DNA of 64,000 nucleotides, taken from positions 1,741,225-1,805,224 of the forward strand of contig NZ_CP020991.1 in assembly GCF_002874775.1 (NCBI RefSeq), written 5' to 3'. Source of the stretch: Monoglobus pectinilyticus. Lineage in GTDB: Bacteria > Bacillota > Clostridia > Monoglobales > Monoglobaceae. The notes beneath the pieces were generated by a model. That model did no database searches, had not been told where the DNA came from, and saw only the letters and a program-made list of their open reading frames with translations. Positions 7,727-44,877 of the stretch are shown here, piece by piece. Every line of letters starts with the position of its first letter. Positions within the stretch are counted from its first letter, which is position 1. Made by a program: the position numbers and the translations under genes.

Positions 7727-8385
7727 GAAGAAATATAAAAGTGTCTTTTTAGGTATATTTTTAATATTTAATAAATAGAAAAAAGTTTATTTTTAAGTAT
7801 AAACGCGATAGAGGAAGTATTATTAATAATATATGAAAATAAAAATATATTTAATTGAATTTTTTGTGATAAAATTAGGTATAACTTTATATAACATATA
7901 TTAAAAAGTTTAAACATTTTTATATAAATATTTTATTATATTTCTGCATTATTAAATCAGGTTTTATCCGCTGTAAAAGCAGAGGAGTCCCGGTAAAATT
8001 TTAAATTTTATTTTATGATAATGTTATGCTGTCTGATTATATGAACGCTGTGCATTCAATAGCAGTTCTAGTAAAAGATACTTAATTATTGAAAGCTATT
8101 GTAAGTTAATTTAATTATAACACGCGCACTTTAAAAAGGTTAAGTCACAGATTATAAATTAGAAAAACGAATTTTTTGTATTCAAATCAACTTTTCTGTC
8201 CGCCATATTAACGTCTTTAAGCTGCTAACATTTTAATAAGCAGCGGTGTATTTTAACCATCCTAAAAACACAATATATAGTAATAAATAAATTGGGGCAA
8301 ATTTTTTAGAACTCTACCTACAATGTGGAGAGGTTATAATAAAATTAACAGAAATATAAAGATCATATATAAAAAATATGTGTTT

Positions 8386-8638
8386 GCAAGCATCGGAGGG
8401 CTGTGACCACACTTTTCTTAAAAAGTGTGTGTTATACATATGATTTTATTTTGCCATAATCTACAATGTCATTATTATGAATACTCAATGAAGATGAAAT
8501 CTGCCGCGTAGGCGCGCAGTTGCGGTAAAGTTTATTATTAAATAGGATATAATAAACTGTTTTAAATATGTTCACGCTCCGCGTGAGATGACCGCTCACC
8601 TAACGAGGTGTGCGTAAGCACACCCTACCGATGTTCGC
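8386..8638 (-). repeat. Modular four-way-junction repeat, full copy (reverse orientation)
   Basis: Runs from GCAAGCATCGG (8386) to CCGATGTTCGC (8638). It carries a 63-bp-type hairpin module (CACACTTTTC / TTAAAAAGTGTG) just inside the GCAAGC end, a TTCACGCTCCGCGTGA hairpin, and GGTGTGC/GCACACC next to CTCACCTAACGAGG. The upstream flank (from about 8299) is repeated before the next copy, so unit plus flank is a tandem duplication. Confidence 0.85.
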
Positions 8639-8747
8639 TATAGCCGCCATTTTGAAACAAATTTTCTCTTGAACTCCACCTACAATGTGGAGATGTTACT
8701 ATAAAACCAACAGAAATATAAAAATTATATATAAAAAATATGTGTTT

Positions 8748-8956
8748 GCAAGCATCGGTAGGGCTGTGACCACACTTTTCTTAAAAAGTGTGTGTTATAC
8801 ATATGATTTTATTTTGCCATAATCTACAATGTCATTATTATGAATACTCAATGAAGATGAAATCTGCCTCGTAAGGCGCGCAGTCGCGGTAAAGTTTATT
8901 ATTAAATATGATATAATAAACTGTTTTAAATACGTTCACGCTCCGCGTGATATGAC
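8748..8956 (-). repeat. Modular repeat, truncated second copy
   Basis: Near-identical to 8386-8590, including flank and hairpins. It stops after the CACGCTCCGCGTGA hairpin and lacks the distal GTGTGC arm and CCGATGTTCGC end. The two copies are about 362 bases apart, start to start. Confidence 0.8.
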
Positions 8957-9075
8957 GGAGATGTGTACGCAATATATCACAATTAATAACGTATATAAAT
9001 TATTTAGAAATACCATCTGCTTATATGCTATATAAATAAAATTATTTTATAATGGATAAAATTTATAAAAAGTTC

Positions 9076-16824: not shown

Positions 16825-16917
16825 GTGCTGTCGACCTCCATTGATTTTATTGGTGTAGAAATAATATTAAAAGCAGAAAAAATTTATTAGCCAAAAGGGT
16901 TAATGACAAACTTTTTT

Positions 16918-16985
16918 AAGTATGTTCACGCTGCATGTTAGATAGCAGCTCACCTAACAAGGCGCACATGCACGCCCTGCTGTAC
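16918..16985 (-). repeat. Degenerate modular repeat fragment
   Basis: ATGTTCACGCTGCATG, AGCTCACCTAACAAGG and GCGCACATGCACGCCCTG match the left half of the family in reverse orientation with broken hairpins. No complete ends. Confidence 0.6.
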
Positions 16986-17021
16986 TAAAAACACTCCTTA
17001 TTTTTATGCCTTTAAAAAGTT

Positions 17022-17624: not shown

Positions 17625-17775
17625 TTTTATCTCTCCTAAAAATATGTTTTTATAATAATCTATATTTTATAAAATATATCATAAAATATATCATAAAATT
17701 TAAAAGTCTTTTTTTGATATAGCGCCTAATGAGATGTGTAAACGTATAATATTACAACCAAGTTTGATTACTCTG

Positions 17776-17981
17776 CAAGGTCTATGACCCCACCAGTATG
17801 GTGGGTGTAATACAAATTACTTAGTTGTGATGTATTGTGTTTGCACACCACGTTAGGTAACTGTCATATCACGCGAAGCGTAGAGGTGCTTAGAATAGTT
17901 TGTTATGAATCTTATTATAATGAACTTTTCCGTGACTGCGCGCCTTACGCGGCGTACTTCGTACGCCCTCCCGAAGCTTGC
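17776..17981 (+). repeat. Modular four-way-junction repeat copy
   Basis: It starts in a 63-bp-type module (CCACCAGTATGGTGG), continues through CACGTTAGGTAACTG and TCACGCGAAGCGT, and ends GCGCGCCTTACGCGG, CCCGAAGCTTGC. Arm 2 is GGCGTAC-TTC-GTACGCC (17951-17967), a different sequence from other copies but fully paired. Confidence 0.8.
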
Positions 17982-18021
17982 TGTACCATATTTTTTGTAT
18001 CCTATCCATGTAGCCGCAATT

Positions 18022-18106
18022 GTTATTGAAGGTTATTTAAAACAAATTAATTTGTATCACACGCACCATACAGGTGCGGTCACAGTTACACTCTTCCGAA
18101 GCTTGC
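18022..18106 (+). repeat. Solo hairpin module with right repeat end
   Basis: AATTTGTATCACACG is followed by CGCACC-ATACA-GGTGCG (18062-18078), GTCACAG and a CTTCCGAAGCTTGC end. It directly follows the copy at 17776-17981, showing that modules are added as units. Confidence 0.7.
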
Positions 18107-18492
18107 TGTACCACATTTTTTATAAATATTTGTTATATAAACTTGATTTGTTTGTCTGTTTTTTGGAGACTTTCCGGTAATTATAAAACTTAAAATATAT
18201 TTATAACAAAATATTGAACATTTCACAGCTCTTAAAAACTTTTAATTTTATTCTGCATTTAAGAGTATATCATAACCGGTTGAGTAAATCTATTGTATAT
18301 TTTATATGAAAGAAATGTAATATTTTAATCAGCCGGTTAATAAATTAATCAAGCTGTGGGTAAATAACAACATAGTTATGGAAATATGAAGAAACATTAT
18401 TAATGAAATAAATTATACCTGTATCCGCAATTTGCACAAGTAATTTACTCTCAATGTTAAAAATTTATTTACAAATTTTTTGTGAAAAGCTA

Positions 18493-23407: not shown

Positions 23408-23440
23408 ATACAAAATAAAAAAGATTTAAAGGTTTCTAGT

Positions 23441-23605
23441 GAACATCGGCAGGGTGTGCTTACGCACACCTCGTTAGGTGAACTACCATCTCACGCGAAG
23501 CGTGAACATACTTAAAACAGTATGTCATAAATATTTTATAATAGTAGACTTTACCGCGGCTGCGCGCCTTACGAGGCAAATTTCATTTGCCCTGCCGACG
23601 CTTGC
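23441..23605 (+). repeat. Modular four-way-junction repeat, compact full copy
   Basis: The clearest copy. GAACATCGGCAGGG pairs with CCCTGCCGACGCTTGC; arm 1 is GGTGTGC-TTAC-GCACACC; CCTCGTTAGGTG pairs with CGCCTTACGAGG; the TCACGC-GAA-GCGTGA hairpin is internal; arm 2 is GGCAAAT-TTC-ATTTGCC (23575-23591). No 63-bp module is inserted. Confidence 0.9.
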
Positions 23606-23719
23606 CATACACATTTTTATTATATATGAATTTTACATTTTTGTTCGCTTTATTGTAGCCTTTGGGCATTATAGGTGGAAATCAATAAAAATTAGACAAA
23701 AAATAAAAGGTGTTTTGGC

Positions 23720-23882
23720 GAATATCGGCAGGGTGCACAAGTGCACCTCGTTAGGTGAACTACCATCTCACGCGAAGCGTGAACATACTTAAAACAGTAT
23801 GTCATAAATATTTTATAATAGTAGACTTTACCGCGGCTGCGCGCCTTACGAGGCAAATTTCATTTGCCCTGCCGACGCTTGC
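23720..23882 (+). repeat. Modular repeat, second tandem copy
   Basis: About 277 bases downstream of the first copy and nearly identical to it including the intervening flank. Arm 1 is replaced by GGTGCAC-AA-GTGCACC, while arm 2 stays GGCAAAT-TTC-ATTTGCC. Pairing is kept in the changed arm. Confidence 0.9.
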
Positions 23883-23997
23883 CATACACATTTTTATTAT
23901 ATATGAATTTTACATTTTTGTTCGCTTTATTGTAGCCTTTGGGCATTATAGGTGGAAATCAATAAAAATTAGACAAAAAATAAAAGGTGTTTTGGTG

Positions 23998-24080
23998 AAC
24001 ATCGGCAGGGTGTGCTTATGCACACCTCGTTAGGTGAGCACCCATCTCACGCGAAGCGTGAATATGCTTAGAACAGTATA
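23998..24080 (+). repeat. Modular repeat, left-half third copy
   Basis: GTGAACATCGGCAGGG, arm 1 GGTGTGC-TTAT-GCACACC, CCTCGTTAGGTGAGC and TCACGCGAAGCGTGA, then the copy stops. Truncated after the central hairpin. Confidence 0.8.
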
Positions 24081-24258
24081 ATATAAACATTAATCTAAAA
24101 ATTAATATATTAAAATAATAATTTTTATAAAAGATAAGTGACGCGGTTATTTAAAATACTAAAGCTATACTAATAGTAAATGTATTATTTTTTGAGGTCA
24201 ATATTGTAATAAATGAATTATTGTAGTATAATGTAAAAAAAGTTTTGAGGAGAAATTT

Positions 24259-25218: not shown

Positions 25219-25310
25219 TTGTTTTGAATTTTATTTTTACCCAAAATGAAATTAATTTATATTATTGATGTAAATTTAAGATTGTGCCGAACGAAATTGC
25301 TGATTATGAT

Positions 25311-25463
25311 GTGTTTCACACAAGTGAGCCGCGTTAGGCGAGCGCTCGTTTCACGCGGGGCGTGAATATACTTAGAACAATTTGTAATAATTCTTTTTAA
25401 TTATAAACTTTTCCGGGACTGCGCGCCTTACGAGGCAAACAAAGTTTGCCCTCCGATGCTTGC
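25311..25463 (+). repeat. Modular repeat copy with eroded left end
   Basis: GCGTTAGGCGAGC, TTTCACGCGGGGCGTGAA and GCGCGCCTTACGAGG are followed by arm 2 GGCAAAC-AAA-GTTTGCC (25434-25450) and CCGATGCTTGC. The left end GAACATCGG is not recognisable. Confidence 0.75.
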
Positions 25464-25778
25464 TGTATCACATTTTTTCATATGAACTTAACTTTTTTGT
25501 CCAGTTTTTCGTAGCCTATCCACAGACATTAAAGGTTTTAGGATAAAGAGTTATATAGTTCATTTTCATTTTCTTAAAAAATTTTGTTACATCTCCTGAA
25601 ATTTGAAAAACTCTAAAAATTTATTAAGTAAAAGTTATAAATTAACGAAATCTTTAACTTTTCATAATAATTTATTTTTAAGCTTTTATAAAAATTTTTT
25701 CTATTTTTATATATAGTTTAAACAGTATCATTGAGAATCTAAAGAAATATAAATAACAAAATAAAATGTGGTAATAGT

Positions 25779-25905
25779 GAGCATCGGTAGGCCGCATTTA
25801 TGCGGCGCGTAAGGCGAGCAGCGCGGACAGAATATAAAACTAAAAGTTATATTAATATATTATCCAACGCCTACTCACATAACAATGTGGTCTGCGGTCA
25901 TATAG
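25779..25905 (+). repeat. Degenerate modular repeat
   Basis: GAGCATCGGTAGG, GCCGCATTTATGCGGC (a paired arm-1-like hairpin) and GCGTAAGGCGAGC are followed by unrelated sequence and a TATTCAAATTATT joint motif near 25908. Ends and central hairpin are lost. Confidence 0.55.
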
Positions 25906-25944
25906 CATATTCAAATTATTTCGCATATACAGATTATTAACATT

Positions 25945-25978
25945 CGCCGAGAGTACATCGTACTCTCGGCGTTTATAT
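25945..25978. terminator. Strong hairpin downstream of the GDPD gene
   Basis: CGCCGAGAGTAC-ATC-GTACTCTCGGCG (25945-25971), a perfect 12-bp stem starting 8 bases beyond the stop codon of the minus-strand gene. The T-rich side (TTTATATTTATT) is on the plus side, so it may act in both directions. Confidence 0.75.
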
Positions 25979-28869: not shown

Positions 28870-28964
28870 GATTTAGAAGATAAGGCCGGTTTCATAAAAC
28901 ATATAAGCAGCAGAGTAATACAAATGGAAAGTTAACAGAAACTTGCCCCAAAATGGTGTTTTTA

Positions 28965-29216
28965 GCGAACATCGGAAGGGGGTGACCCCACCTTCTAGGT
29001 GGGTGTGATACAAAGTGAGTTGTTTTATTATAGCCTAAAATGTCAATGAATCACTTAGTTGTGATGTATTGTGCGTAAGCACACCGCGTTAGGTGAGCAT
29101 ACATCTCACGCAAAGCGTGAACGTATTTAAAACAATTTGTTATATCTTATTTAGAAATAAACTTAACCGCGGCCGCGCGCCTTACGTGGCAGATTTCATC
29201 TGCCCTCCGAAGCTTG
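28965..29216 (+). repeat. Modular repeat copy with one 63-bp module
   Basis: GCGAACATCGGAAGGG to CCGAAGCTTGC. A 63-bp-type module (CCACC-TTCTA-GGTGG) is inserted just inside the left end. Arm 1 TGTGC-GTAA-GCACA, central TCACGC-AAA-GCGTGA, arm 2 GGCAGAT-TTC-ATCTGCC (29188-29204). Confidence 0.88.
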
Positions 29217-29325
29217 CAAACCCTTATTTTTAATATATGATCTTTATATTTTTGTTAGTTTTATTATAACCTCTACATATTGTAAGTGGAAGTCAAGAGA
29301 AACTTGCCCCAAAATGGTGTTTTTA

Positions 29326-29661
29326 GCGAACATCGGAAGGGTGTGACCCCACCTTCTAGGTGAGTGTGATACAAAGTGAGTTGTTTTATTATAGCCTAAA
29401 ATGTCAATGAATCACTTAGTTGTGATGTATTGTGCGTAAGCACACCGCGTTAGGTGAGCATACATCTCACGCAAAGCGTGAAGATATTCTAAATAGTTTG
29501 CTGTAATCCTTTTTAATTGTAATTTACCGCGGCCGCGCGCCTTACGTGGCAGATTTTATCTGCATTGAGTATTCAAATTATTGACATTGAAGGCTAACAA
29601 AAACAAGTTACTTTGTATAACATCCACCTTTTCAGGTGGAGTCACACCTACCGATGCTTGC
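29326..29661 (+). repeat. Modular repeat copy with two 63-bp modules
   Basis: The left part is nearly identical to the copy at 28965. The right arm is opened: after GGCAGATTTTATCTGC comes a joint TTGAGTATTCAAATTATTG and a second 63-bp-type module with hairpin CCACC-TTTTC-AGGTGG before CCGATGCTTGC. This shows module insertion in either arm. Confidence 0.85.
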
Positions 29662-29758
29662 AAACACATATTTTTTATATATGATATTTTTGTTTATAAT
29701 ATAATCTCTTAACAATGTAGGAGGAGTTCAAGAGAAAACTTGCCTCAAATGGTGTTTT

Positions 29759-29890
29759 TGGTGAACATCGGCAGGGTGTGACCCCACCCTACAGGCGTGG
29801 TCACAGATATTGTAGGTTTATTAAAGCCGGTTAATATGTATAACACCCACTTTTCTTAAAAAGTGTGGACACAGCCCTACCTAAGCTTGC
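29759..29890 (+). repeat. Minimal repeat copy made of ends plus hairpin modules
   Basis: GTGAACATCGGCAGGG and CCTAAGCTTGC bracket only two 63-bp-type modules (CACCCTACAGGCGTGG-type and CCCACTTTTC / TTAAAAAGTGTGG hairpins). The CGTTAGGTG core and the TCACGC hairpin are absent. Confidence 0.75.
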
Positions 29891-30045
29891 AAAATCATAT
29901 TTCTATTATATTTGATCTTTAAACTTCTGATAATTTTATTAAAATAAAAAGTCGTCTTATTTTATTTATTGTGATATTGCTTGTGAATATATAAAAGTTT
30001 GACCCAATATGTATAATGTTCTGATTTTATGATTTGCTAAACCGA

Positions 30046-39589: not shown

Positions 39590-41139
39590 GTTAAGCACTT
39601 ACAGGGGAAGTAAGTATATTTTGAATTGAACTTTTGATATTTTTATTATAGAGTGAAAAAATTTTTAGCGTATTTATTTTAGTATTGGAAGATAATTTGA
39701 AATGTTTTTGCCACGAGTTGATATAAATGTATGAGATTTCTATTATGAAGAGGTAAACTGTGTATAATTTTTTTAGTAACATATTTAGAACAATTCTGCA
39801 GTATTAATTGACAGACAATAAAAATATAAATAATAAATGCACATAAATAAGGACTTGTCTATATCCGGTATATTATGTGCGGTATTTTTAACATTGAATG
39901 TTCTTGATTAGATTAAGTTTTTTATTTATATCTCATTGATAATTATCGAATATTTTTATGCTAAAAAATAAAAATTAATTATTATAAAACATATGATATG
40001 TTATGTCATTTAATATGATAATATAGTCGTAACAGAAACCGGCTTATTTCCTATTTGAAGATAAATATGAGATTGGTCTATGCTGCTGTTGCATAGATAA
40101 TGTTATGAAGAAACACCAGACAGATTATAGAATAAATATAAAGTTTAATAAAAATAGTTAATATAGTAGGTAATATAGTAATCAAGATGGTAACTAAGGC
40201 AGTAGACCATTATATAAACAAAACCAAACAATACTAAACCAAACTATACAAAACAAAACTATTTATAAATTATATAATTATTTTACTTTATATTTTCTTT
40301 TAAAATATGAAGTGCACAGAACAAATACATAAAATAGTAGAATAAAAAACTTAATGATGAGGATATAGAATAGGTAATTAATCTTGCAGAAAGTTATAAA
40401 TATAATAATAAAAGATATTAACAAATTCGTGACTGCGCACCTCGCAAGGCGCATAAATGCGTTTGCGTATTCAAATTATTATTTGCGTATTCATATTATT
40501 GTAGGTAAATGAAAACAAGTTATTTTGAATCACACCCACCATGCTGGTGGGGTCACAGACCTTGTAGGTAAATGAAAACAAGTTATTTTGAATCACACCC
40601 ACCATACTGGTGGGGTCACAGACATTGAAGGTTTATCAAAACAAGTATTTAAGGCTCATACGCACCTTTTAGGTGCGGTCACATACATTATGGATTTGGT
40701 AAAACATTTTGTTTTGTATCACACCTACCGATGTTTGCCAAAAGAATAGTTTTTATAAGATGAAATTAATAGGAACTCGAAAAGCCTGTATTCACGGTTA
40801 AAAAATTGTTTGTCAAATAATAAGGCTCGATATGCTGTGAAAAACGAATAAAATTCTGAACAAAAAGCTGAATCACATTAAAGTGTAATGAGTAAAATAA
40901 AACATCAGCTTTAACTTAAAAGTATTCATAGGTTTTTATTACATAGAATTGCATAAACAAATAATTATGTATATTTATGGATTATATACTATAATAAAAC
41001 AAATTTGTGTTGACTTTCTGATGTAAGATATTTATAATTTAATTATGAAACAGCGCACAATGTTTTTCGTGAAACATTATTGTTCTGTGCGAAAAATAGG
41101 ATATGGCGTCGTATGAAAAAATTAATTGGGGGTATTCTT
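39590..41139. other. Gene-free region, 1.5 kb
   Basis: Strongly AT-rich; no convincing reading frame or RNA gene. It contains a repeat copy at 40431-40739 and a run of A/C-rich words (AAACCAAAC type) around 40220-40260. Confidence 0.55.
40431..40739 (+). repeat. Right-half repeat copy with a run of hairpin modules
   Basis: Starts at GTGACTGCGCACC, passes a joint GCGTATTCAAATTATT (duplicated) and then three successive 63-bp-type modules with hairpins CCACC-ATGCT-GGTGG, CCACC-ATACT-GGTGG and CGCACC-TTTTA-GGTGCG, ending CCTACCGATGTTTGCC. Opposite in orientation to the long array at 44.2 kb. Confidence 0.82.
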
Positions 41140-43988: not shown

Positions 43989-44140
43989 GGTATTGGAAGG
44001 TAAACAGAAAAACAGACAGAAAAAATAAATGTGTTTATAGTGAACATTTTTGGTTTTTATTAGCTTTCCAACTATAATGCGGAAAGTCCGCAATAAAGCA
44101 GACGGAAATATCAAAGTTCATATATAAAAAATGTGGTATG

Positions 44141-44877
44141 GCAAGCATCGGAGGGCTGTGACTACACTTAAAAAAGTGTGTGTAATACAAATCACTTTGC
44201 ATTGATAAACCTACAATGTCTGTGACCCCACCAGTATGGTGGTTGTGATACAAAATAACTTGTTTTGATTTACCTACAATGTCTGTGACCCCTCAGCATG
44301 GTGTGTGTGATACAAAATAACTTGTATTGATAAACCTACAATGTCTGTGGCCCCTCAGCATGGTGTGTGTGATACAAAATAACTTGTATTGATAAACCTA
44401 CAATGTCTGTGACCCCACTAGCATGGTGGGTGTGATACAAAATAACTTGTATTGATAAACCTACAATGTCTGTGACCCCACTAGCATGGTGGGTGTGATA
44501 CAAAATAACTTGTATTGATAAACCTACAATGTCTGTGACCCCACTAGCATGGTGGGTGTGATACAAAATAACTTGTATTGATAAACCTACAATGTCTGTG
44601 ACCCCACTAGCATGGTGGGTGTGATACAAAATAACTTGTATTGATAAACCTACAATGTCTGTGACCCCACTAGCATGGTGGGTGTGATACAAAATAACTT
44701 GTATTGATAAACCTACAATGTCTGTGACCCCACCAGCATGGTGGGTGTGATTCATTATAACTTGTTTTGATTTACCTACAAGGTCAATAATATGAATACT
44801 CAAATAATAATATGAATACGCAACACAAACGCAGTTTGCCGCGCAAGGGGCGCAGTCCCGGTAAAGCTTTTTGATTT
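44141..44877 (-). repeat. Modular repeat copy expanded by tandem hairpin modules
   Basis: Begins GCAAGCATCGGAGGG with a CACTT / AAGTGTG hairpin, continues into nine 63-bp modules, then a joint (AATATGAATACTCAAATAAT, duplicated) and CGCAGTTTGCCGCGC, AGTCCCGGTAAAGC. It is the reverse-orientation right half of the family with the 63-bp module expanded in place. Confidence 0.85.
44211..44775. repeat. Tandem array of nine 63-bp hairpin units
   Basis: Units begin CTACAATGTCTGTG at 44211, 44274, 44336, 44398, 44461, 44524, 44587, 44650 and 44713, with a partial at 44776. Period is 63 bases (62 in two cases). The five units from 44398 to 44712 appear identical. Each holds a CCAC-TAGCAT-GGTGG-type hairpin and TGTGATACAAAATAACTTG. 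Not CRISPR: there are no unique spacers. Confidence 0.95.

Follow-up and report, generated by a model that had tools for sequence, protein, structure and literature searches.

Interspersed palindromic foldback repeats of the REPIN or BOX type are a known kind of sequence. The BIMEs of enterobacteria are mosaic arrays of palindromic units between genes, from which the repeats described here differ in having modules inserted within the palindrome and a core unit of about 165 bp. REPINs are inverted palindromic doublets for which hairpin and clover folds have been proposed, and as set out in PMC3116915 they resemble the present repeats in having two inverted short palindromic ends around a spacer, in being extragenic, in forming tandem clusters that include their flanks, and in carrying compensatory changes. 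The GTAG and CGTC superfamilies of REP sequences are likewise short palindromic interspersed repeats, often dimers, and CGTC families have also been reported without a dedicated transposase (PMC3733652, the main text of which does not contain the words Clostridi- and Firmicutes). The BOX element of Streptococcus is, like the family below, a modular composite in which the number of tandem middle modules (boxB) varies between strains, and boxB is predicted to interact little with the rest of the element (PMC3049150). Template switching, as described for RNA genes in PMC8794818, causes compensatory changes, several of them at once, as well as loop inversions.

We analysed a window of 64,000 nt (the whole stretch from 1,741,225 to 1,805,224 of NZ_CP020991.1) from the genome of Monoglobus pectinilyticus, which is 2.76 Mb in one contig, and found what looks like an undescribed repeat family in this human gut pectin degrader; the titles and abstract openings searched, mostly from the open literature and without the species' genome paper, describe no repeats in Monoglobus. 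Its units are bounded by inverted ends (motif A) with a hairpin in each, as in REPIN doublets; A ends and conserved boxes are inverted and give a foldback fold, as in the terminal inverted repeats of MITEs; and arrays of a 63-nt module (D) differ in length between strains, as does the variable tandem middle module of BOX. The initial annotation knew of no described family with this plan, too strong a statement given the inverted palindromic doublets and proposed clover fold of REPINs (PMC3116915). We liken the family to REPINs by plan; relative to the REPINs of that paper, no match to Y1_Tnp, the sign of a RAYT, occurs in either element-bearing genome, the units are longer, modules are nested, and whole hairpins differ between strains. 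The fixed tag of the GTAG superfamily (PMC3733652) is here GNAG, the second base being T in 25 of 53 left ends and otherwise C, A or G. BOX as described in PMC3049150 is also likened by plan, but in Monoglobus the inverted ends enclose the modules, and the arms keep a hairpin form as they vary. In contrast to the RNA genes of PMC8794818, we are dealing with repeated DNA, in which a whole different hairpin stands at one place in another strain. What is new is the sequence family, its nested modules, the lack of any match to a Y1 transposase, and one clean case in which a covarying hairpin differs as a whole between strains.

The unit at 23439-23605 and the other repeat loci of the window are listed in Table 1. 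The initial annotation had delimited this unit as 23441..23605, correct at the right end and slightly too short at the left, and the strings and coordinates that it quoted for the copies at 23441, 29188, 17951 and 25434 are all present. In minimum-free-energy folds of 23431-23615 the outer stem, both side hairpins and the inner stem all appear, with DNA of either strand and with RNA, and the four-way junction first proposed can indeed be drawn; z is -5.1, -5.9 and -5.0 for the DNA plus strand, the DNA minus strand and RNA, in that order, and 0 of 200 shuffles was as stable in each of the three. The third hairpin, the nested modules of 63-90 nt and the tandem arrays add to what had been noticed there. 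Copies in the window lie in both orientations, and its nine loci are all intergenic by coordinate mapping onto the gene list of a second strain, which is incomplete.

Table 1. Parts of the core unit at 23439-23605 and further repeat loci (window coordinates)
Feature	Position	Strand	Remark
Complete core unit, 167 nt	23439..23605	+	First of three units between dnaJ and prmA
Left end motif A (GTGAACATCGGCAGG), 5' side of outer stem	23439..23453	+	
Arm 1 hairpin GGTGTGC-TTAC-GCACACC	23453..23470	+	
Conserved box TCGTTAGGTGAAC, 5' side of inner stem	23471..23483	+	
Third hairpin TCACGC-GAA-GCGTGA	23491..23505	+	
Conserved box GCGCGCCTTACGA, 3' side of inner stem	23562..23574	+	
Arm 2 hairpin GGCAAAT-TTC-ATTTGCC	23575..23591	+	
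Right end motif A (CCTGCCGACGCTTGC), 3' side of outer stem	23591..23605	+	
Second complete core unit of the array	23718..23882	+	
Third unit, left half only	23995..24090	+	Common to second strain
Two composite units with D module	8302..8980	-	Second strain lacks about 90 nt (D module)
Degenerate copy	16848..16990	-	
Composite copy	17750..18124	+	Second strain has another whole hairpin as arm 2 near 17951
Core copy, right end only	25299..25463	+	
Related-subfamily copy (GTGAGCATCGG ... GCGTAAGGCGAGC)	25777..25947	-	Weak match, E 0.00045
Three units with D modules	28929..29911	+	Single hybrid unit in second strain
Right half-element, at least three 63-nt D modules	40430..40740	+	
Right half-element and tandem 63-nt D array	44107..44865	-	Array length differs between strains

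Across the genome, BLASTN places the family at no fewer than 53 positions (40 of 113 candidates were scored), and two covariance models, R1 and R2, give at least 48 and at least 59 matches. The end motif GYRARCATCGGNAGG occurs 247 times with at most one mismatch (131 forward, 116 reverse), against 1 + 0 matches for the reversed-pattern control. With two mismatches allowed, 65 units with inverted ends could be parsed in 288,307 bases, one of which (41 nt) resembles an unrelated hairpin; their lengths are step-like, near 46, 67, 105, 130, 165, 250, 335 and more, and simple core units number 24, of which 20 are distinct. Each end runs from the 15-nt motif A through a hairpin arm to a conserved box (CGTTAGGTGARC on the left and GCGCGCCTWACG on the right, of the general form CGTTAGGYG...), and the third hairpin follows the left box. 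Loops of this third hairpin are GNA in 43 of 55 copies of type a and 22 of 23 of type b, on differing stems; GNA loops make very stable DNA hairpins. D modules measure 63 to about 90 nt, start with TGTGACC, often contain a CCACC/GGTGG hairpin, and may sit between A and the arm on either side, or in tandem, and one 543-nt unit has a left end at both its sides. Another multi-copy segment (TTTCTTTTTCTYGCAAGAAAAAGAAACGCTTCACC...; L088, L089, L090, L120, L139) also carries D modules, inserted at differing points. Filled and empty sites of D modules in unrelated repeats, read by eye, revealed no obvious target duplication, and a joined-flank search yielded no clean empty site for a full unit, the matches listed being other repeat copies.

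Below 646 kb and above 2.574 Mb the chromosome holds no repeat among the matches listed by BLASTN, motif and models, and a 2-mismatch scan of fetched stretches of this arc returned a single apparent false end at 205526; dnaA lies at 1.345 Mb, so this arc lies towards the presumed terminus. The exact left-box pattern has 0 matches in collections of genome contigs and viral contigs (the own genome is perhaps not among them) and none in phage records; its 11 matches in plasmid records are all from M. pectinilyticus. The records of the second strain are filed as plasmids but carry dnaK, prmA and rpoB. Three records filed as complete plasmids (NZ_OY725739.1, NZ_OY725743.1 and NZ_OY725728.1) contain core chromosomal genes (dnaK, rpoB, ruvAB, dnaG, rpoD) and are probably chromosome contigs.

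Covariation is widely taken as proof of a selected RNA fold, and in this family the arms covary strongly while the long-range helices do not. We aligned the 20 distinct core units, picked by ends and length and not by arm pairing (alignment A1). Both sides change in 6 of 7 pairs of arm 1 and 4 of 7 pairs of arm 2, with 99.3% of cells paired in each, which bears out the covarying arms of the initial annotation for both side hairpins; the helices that make the junction fare differently, with both-side change in 1 of 14 outer pairs (85.3% of cells paired) and 1 of 12 inner pairs (86.3%). The third hairpin is paired in 100% of cells, with both-side change in 0 of 6 pairs. Particular positions of the long stems are mostly unpaired, namely outer columns 5 and 7 (19 and 12 of 20 copies) and inner columns 33 and 37 (13 and 15 of 20), and a different fixed sequence is kept on either side. 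Pairing in the long stems follows from the inverted-repeat nature of the ends.

Permutation agrees with this division. For pairs 2-7 in arm 1, and for pairs 4, 5 and 7 in arm 2, 0 of 2000 shuffles did as well as the data; pairs 6 and 3 of arm 2 gave P 0.0025 and 0.05 (47 units), figures inflated by the requirement of at least four or five paired bases in the arms, of which A1 is free. Three variable long-range pairs were treated in the same way with 32 to 47 units: outer position 7 shows no association (19 paired vs 21.5 expected, P 0.87; 10 of 53 units with an off-pattern right end left out of the outer-stem permutation), outer position 12 a weak one (19 vs 15.3, P 0.09; further units without a full right end left out, n=32), and the inner pair adjoining the arms none (12 vs 16.4, P 0.97). 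The covariation test proposed at the outset favours the arms and not these three long-range pairs.

A second strain, M. pectinilyticus TSDC17.2-1.2, allows the same places to be compared; its records match window 7000-31000 with 97% coverage and 98.5% identity. In the window, mismatches amount to 0.96% outside repeats (428 of 44,665 aligned bases) and to 3.6% within them (109 of 3006), and 1232 of 4238 repeat bases are unaligned, vs 49 bases outside repeats. Length differences between large alignment blocks all fall at repeat loci. Near 8.8 kb they concern one D module of about 90 nt, near 44 kb the number of D copies, and near 17.8, 23.4 and 29 kb the arrays are rearranged. At 14 further loci that have the end motif here, all 14 also have it in the second strain, and the number of end motifs differs at 12.

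Of 45 arms compared, 15 differ between the strains (7 of 26 for arm 1, 8 of 19 for arm 2), and in five of these the differences involve five to eight sites each and the alternatives are other complete or nearly complete hairpins. The clean case is at window 17951, where GGCGTACTTCGTACGCC stands against GGCAGATTTCATCTGCC in a single alignment, 11 central bases differing as a block between flanks identical at 120 of 120 bases. In the other four cases an alignment break is 84 to 134 bases away or, in a tandem array, the edge of one of several alignments is 32 bases away, and different units may be under comparison. With strain divergence of about 1%, stepwise compensation is not a plausible source of six paired changes within 17 bases. 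No other arm 2 is as common in the family as GGCAGATTTCATCTGCC, which makes conversion from another copy the simplest explanation; the converted tract, judged by eye, could be 11 to about 45 nt. Alternatively, the arms might be exchangeable cassettes, an extruded hairpin being cut or copied at its base and another copy's hairpin put in. We think this unlikely; 17951 is its sole clean case, and ordinary short-tract conversion fits as well. If it were true, a hairpin would be kept without its sequence, and perfect covariation would arise at the DNA level without stepwise selection.

In arm 1 the reverse-complemented loop is also found in the family for 37 of 46 copies, whereas 0 of 26 copies have a counterpart with the reversed loop; the complement control gives 21 of 47 because loops of only A or T count in both. 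Neighbouring copies with the same stem have loops TTT and AAA, or TT and AA. In arm 2 inversion is hardly seen (3 of 44 copies), and between the strains the arm 2 at 902260, on the edge of an alignment block, seems to be in inverted form save for one base. We infer that template switching acts in the Monoglobus repeats. The initial annotation had argued that compensatory change means a selected fold; with a whole hairpin differing between strains amid identical flanks, arm 1 loops in both orientations, and template switching as published in PMC8794818, selection does not follow from compensatory change. The family lends itself to testing to what extent repeat recombination and template switching imitate selection.

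Among 60 genomes, BLASTN matched the own genome alone and missed one other Monoglobus genome (G008, 74% complete), which was picked up by model R1 with 26 rows at 16 places; R1 had no match in the other 58 relatives. The genus of G008 is taken from named sequences related to the prmA of the window. Model R2 was built from copies of the two species; among 51 genomes in the order it matches 2 and has no match in the other 49, with filters that can lose weak matches. In G008 we parsed 18 units, 15 of them 147-154 nt long, with the parts in the same order and other arms: either GTGAGCC...GGCGAAC and its swapped version, which contain tandem G.A mismatches, or CTTGCTAACGCAAG. In one copy (GTTCGCCC...GGGGCGAAC) it looks as though one half had served as the template of its partner. 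A joint alignment of 15 + 13 copies from the two species has both-side changes in 12 of 14 arm pairs, 4 of 14 outer pairs and 3 of 15 inner pairs, with 84.0 and 79.1% of cells paired in the arms, 83.8% in the outer stem and 75.9% in the inner stem; the arms are no better paired there than the outer stem, and perfect arm pairing is thus not the rule in G008. The third hairpin is absent from the G008 copies. Outside its A ends (L143, L146, L148, L152, L154, L162, L164) lie further hairpins of about 20-25 nt, and at several of these loci minisatellite tails (like CTAATCCCTACGTTG), seen by eye, give a larger foldback.

Past insertion is likely, since the dnaJ-prmA gap is about 35 bp in the nearest relative seen vs 891 bp with three units in the window. 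End motifs are common to both strains at 14 of 14 further loci, and no instance of recent insertion of a whole element appeared at these 14 loci. Several other Monoglobus or Clostridia genomes (isolates named Lapin; L182-L185, L187, L189) have another, G+C-rich palindromic sequence upstream of prmA. The IS200/IS605- or RAYT-like transposase that the initial annotation had suggested seeking elsewhere in the genome did not emerge: Y1_Tnp (PF01797) has 0 matches in the own genome and in G008 at its 74% completeness, with matches in 5 of 14 genomes as a control; two other Monoglobus genomes do match. TnpB (PF07282) has none in 12 genomes, both element-bearing ones included. We accordingly set aside mobilisation of that type. 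The genome has 10 matches to tyrosine recombinases. The order of the conserved boxes, read by eye, is GTTAGG first and CCTAAC/CCTTAC second, the reverse of the attC core order RYYYAAC ... GTTRRRY, and an integron attC was rejected. So was an autonomous element between the inverted arrays at 40.4 and 44.8 kb, where the genes match SH3, amidase and kinase-like families; we read the two arrays as separate half-elements. A small XRE-type HTH gene is found at seven loci (L212, L214-L219), each with an end motif within about 1.6 kb, and at one (L215, 1535 kb) two HTH genes lie between inverted ends. As an autonomous partner these genes were rejected: they have no match in G008, and proteins of the XRE type are not known to act as recombinases.

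Taken together, we favour, with moderate confidence, a reading of these sequences as non-autonomous REPIN-like modular foldback repeats remodelled by recombination and, probably, by template switching. The four-way junction can be drawn, but it is more plausibly the layout of a DNA repeat than an RNA or junction fold under selection. In this arrangement, two ends (terminal inverted repeats of motif A, hairpin arm and box) face each other around a short A+T-rich middle, and since there is a hairpin within each of them, a four-way junction arises on paper whenever the two are paired. The units would have been spread by an enzyme that mobilises them through their hairpins or as single strands; ectopic conversion or unequal exchange between copies may underlie the changes in array size, the gain or loss of D modules and the whole-hairpin differences (one of them clean) seen between strains; and template switching would help to keep the hairpins paired. 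That hairpins are kept in two species could instead reflect selection on the arms. Possible, if rather doubtful, is that the clover or four-way fold itself works, as an extruded or single-stranded DNA substrate of a putative transposase or recombinase that needs both hairpins. Such a fold is proposed in PMC3116915 as the likely transposition substrate of REPINs, the position of the arms within the ends is the same in the two species and their variation is on both sides, the junction forms in DNA folds of both strands, and loops of the third hairpin are largely GNA; yet the long stems lack covariation, the second species lacks the third hairpin, no candidate enzyme was found, and orientation is co-directional with replication in 36 of 53 units but only 16 of 27 bins (counted on a 2-mismatch end list that includes the apparent false end at 205526).

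It is very improbable that the structure is conserved as a folded, putatively transcribed RNA, regulatory or stabilising. The fold z of RNA and the covarying arms would suit it, and if one strand worked as RNA, G.U should exceed A.C on that strand. However, single-change mismatches in distinct hairpins number 10 G.T and 10 A.C in arm 1, and 1 and 3 in arm 2 (the minimum pairing required of the arms applies here too); this balance leaves nothing that points to RNA, and three fixed positions account for most of the 95 G.T against 77 A.C cells of the outer stem. Many copies are matched by model R1 on the opposite strand too, copies in the window lie both ways, and Rfam 15 at gathering score gives five matches in the window, all rRNA or tRNA, on which grounds we rejected an RNA family. 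Selection of the fold as folded RNA, one of three readings first offered, therefore finds no support; its DNA readings remain open. Sites retained because a host protein binds their cruciforms or hairpins, in chromosome organisation, termination or at mRNA 3' ends, are quite improbable: the nine intergenic loci out of nine, the many copies and the hairpins kept in two species are what such sites would predict, but strains of a single species differ strongly in copy number and structure, and only 2 of 51 genomes of the order have matches. Repeat variation at the strain level could serve for typing, and the tandem array of 63-nt hairpin modules at 44107-44860 is a possible typing marker.
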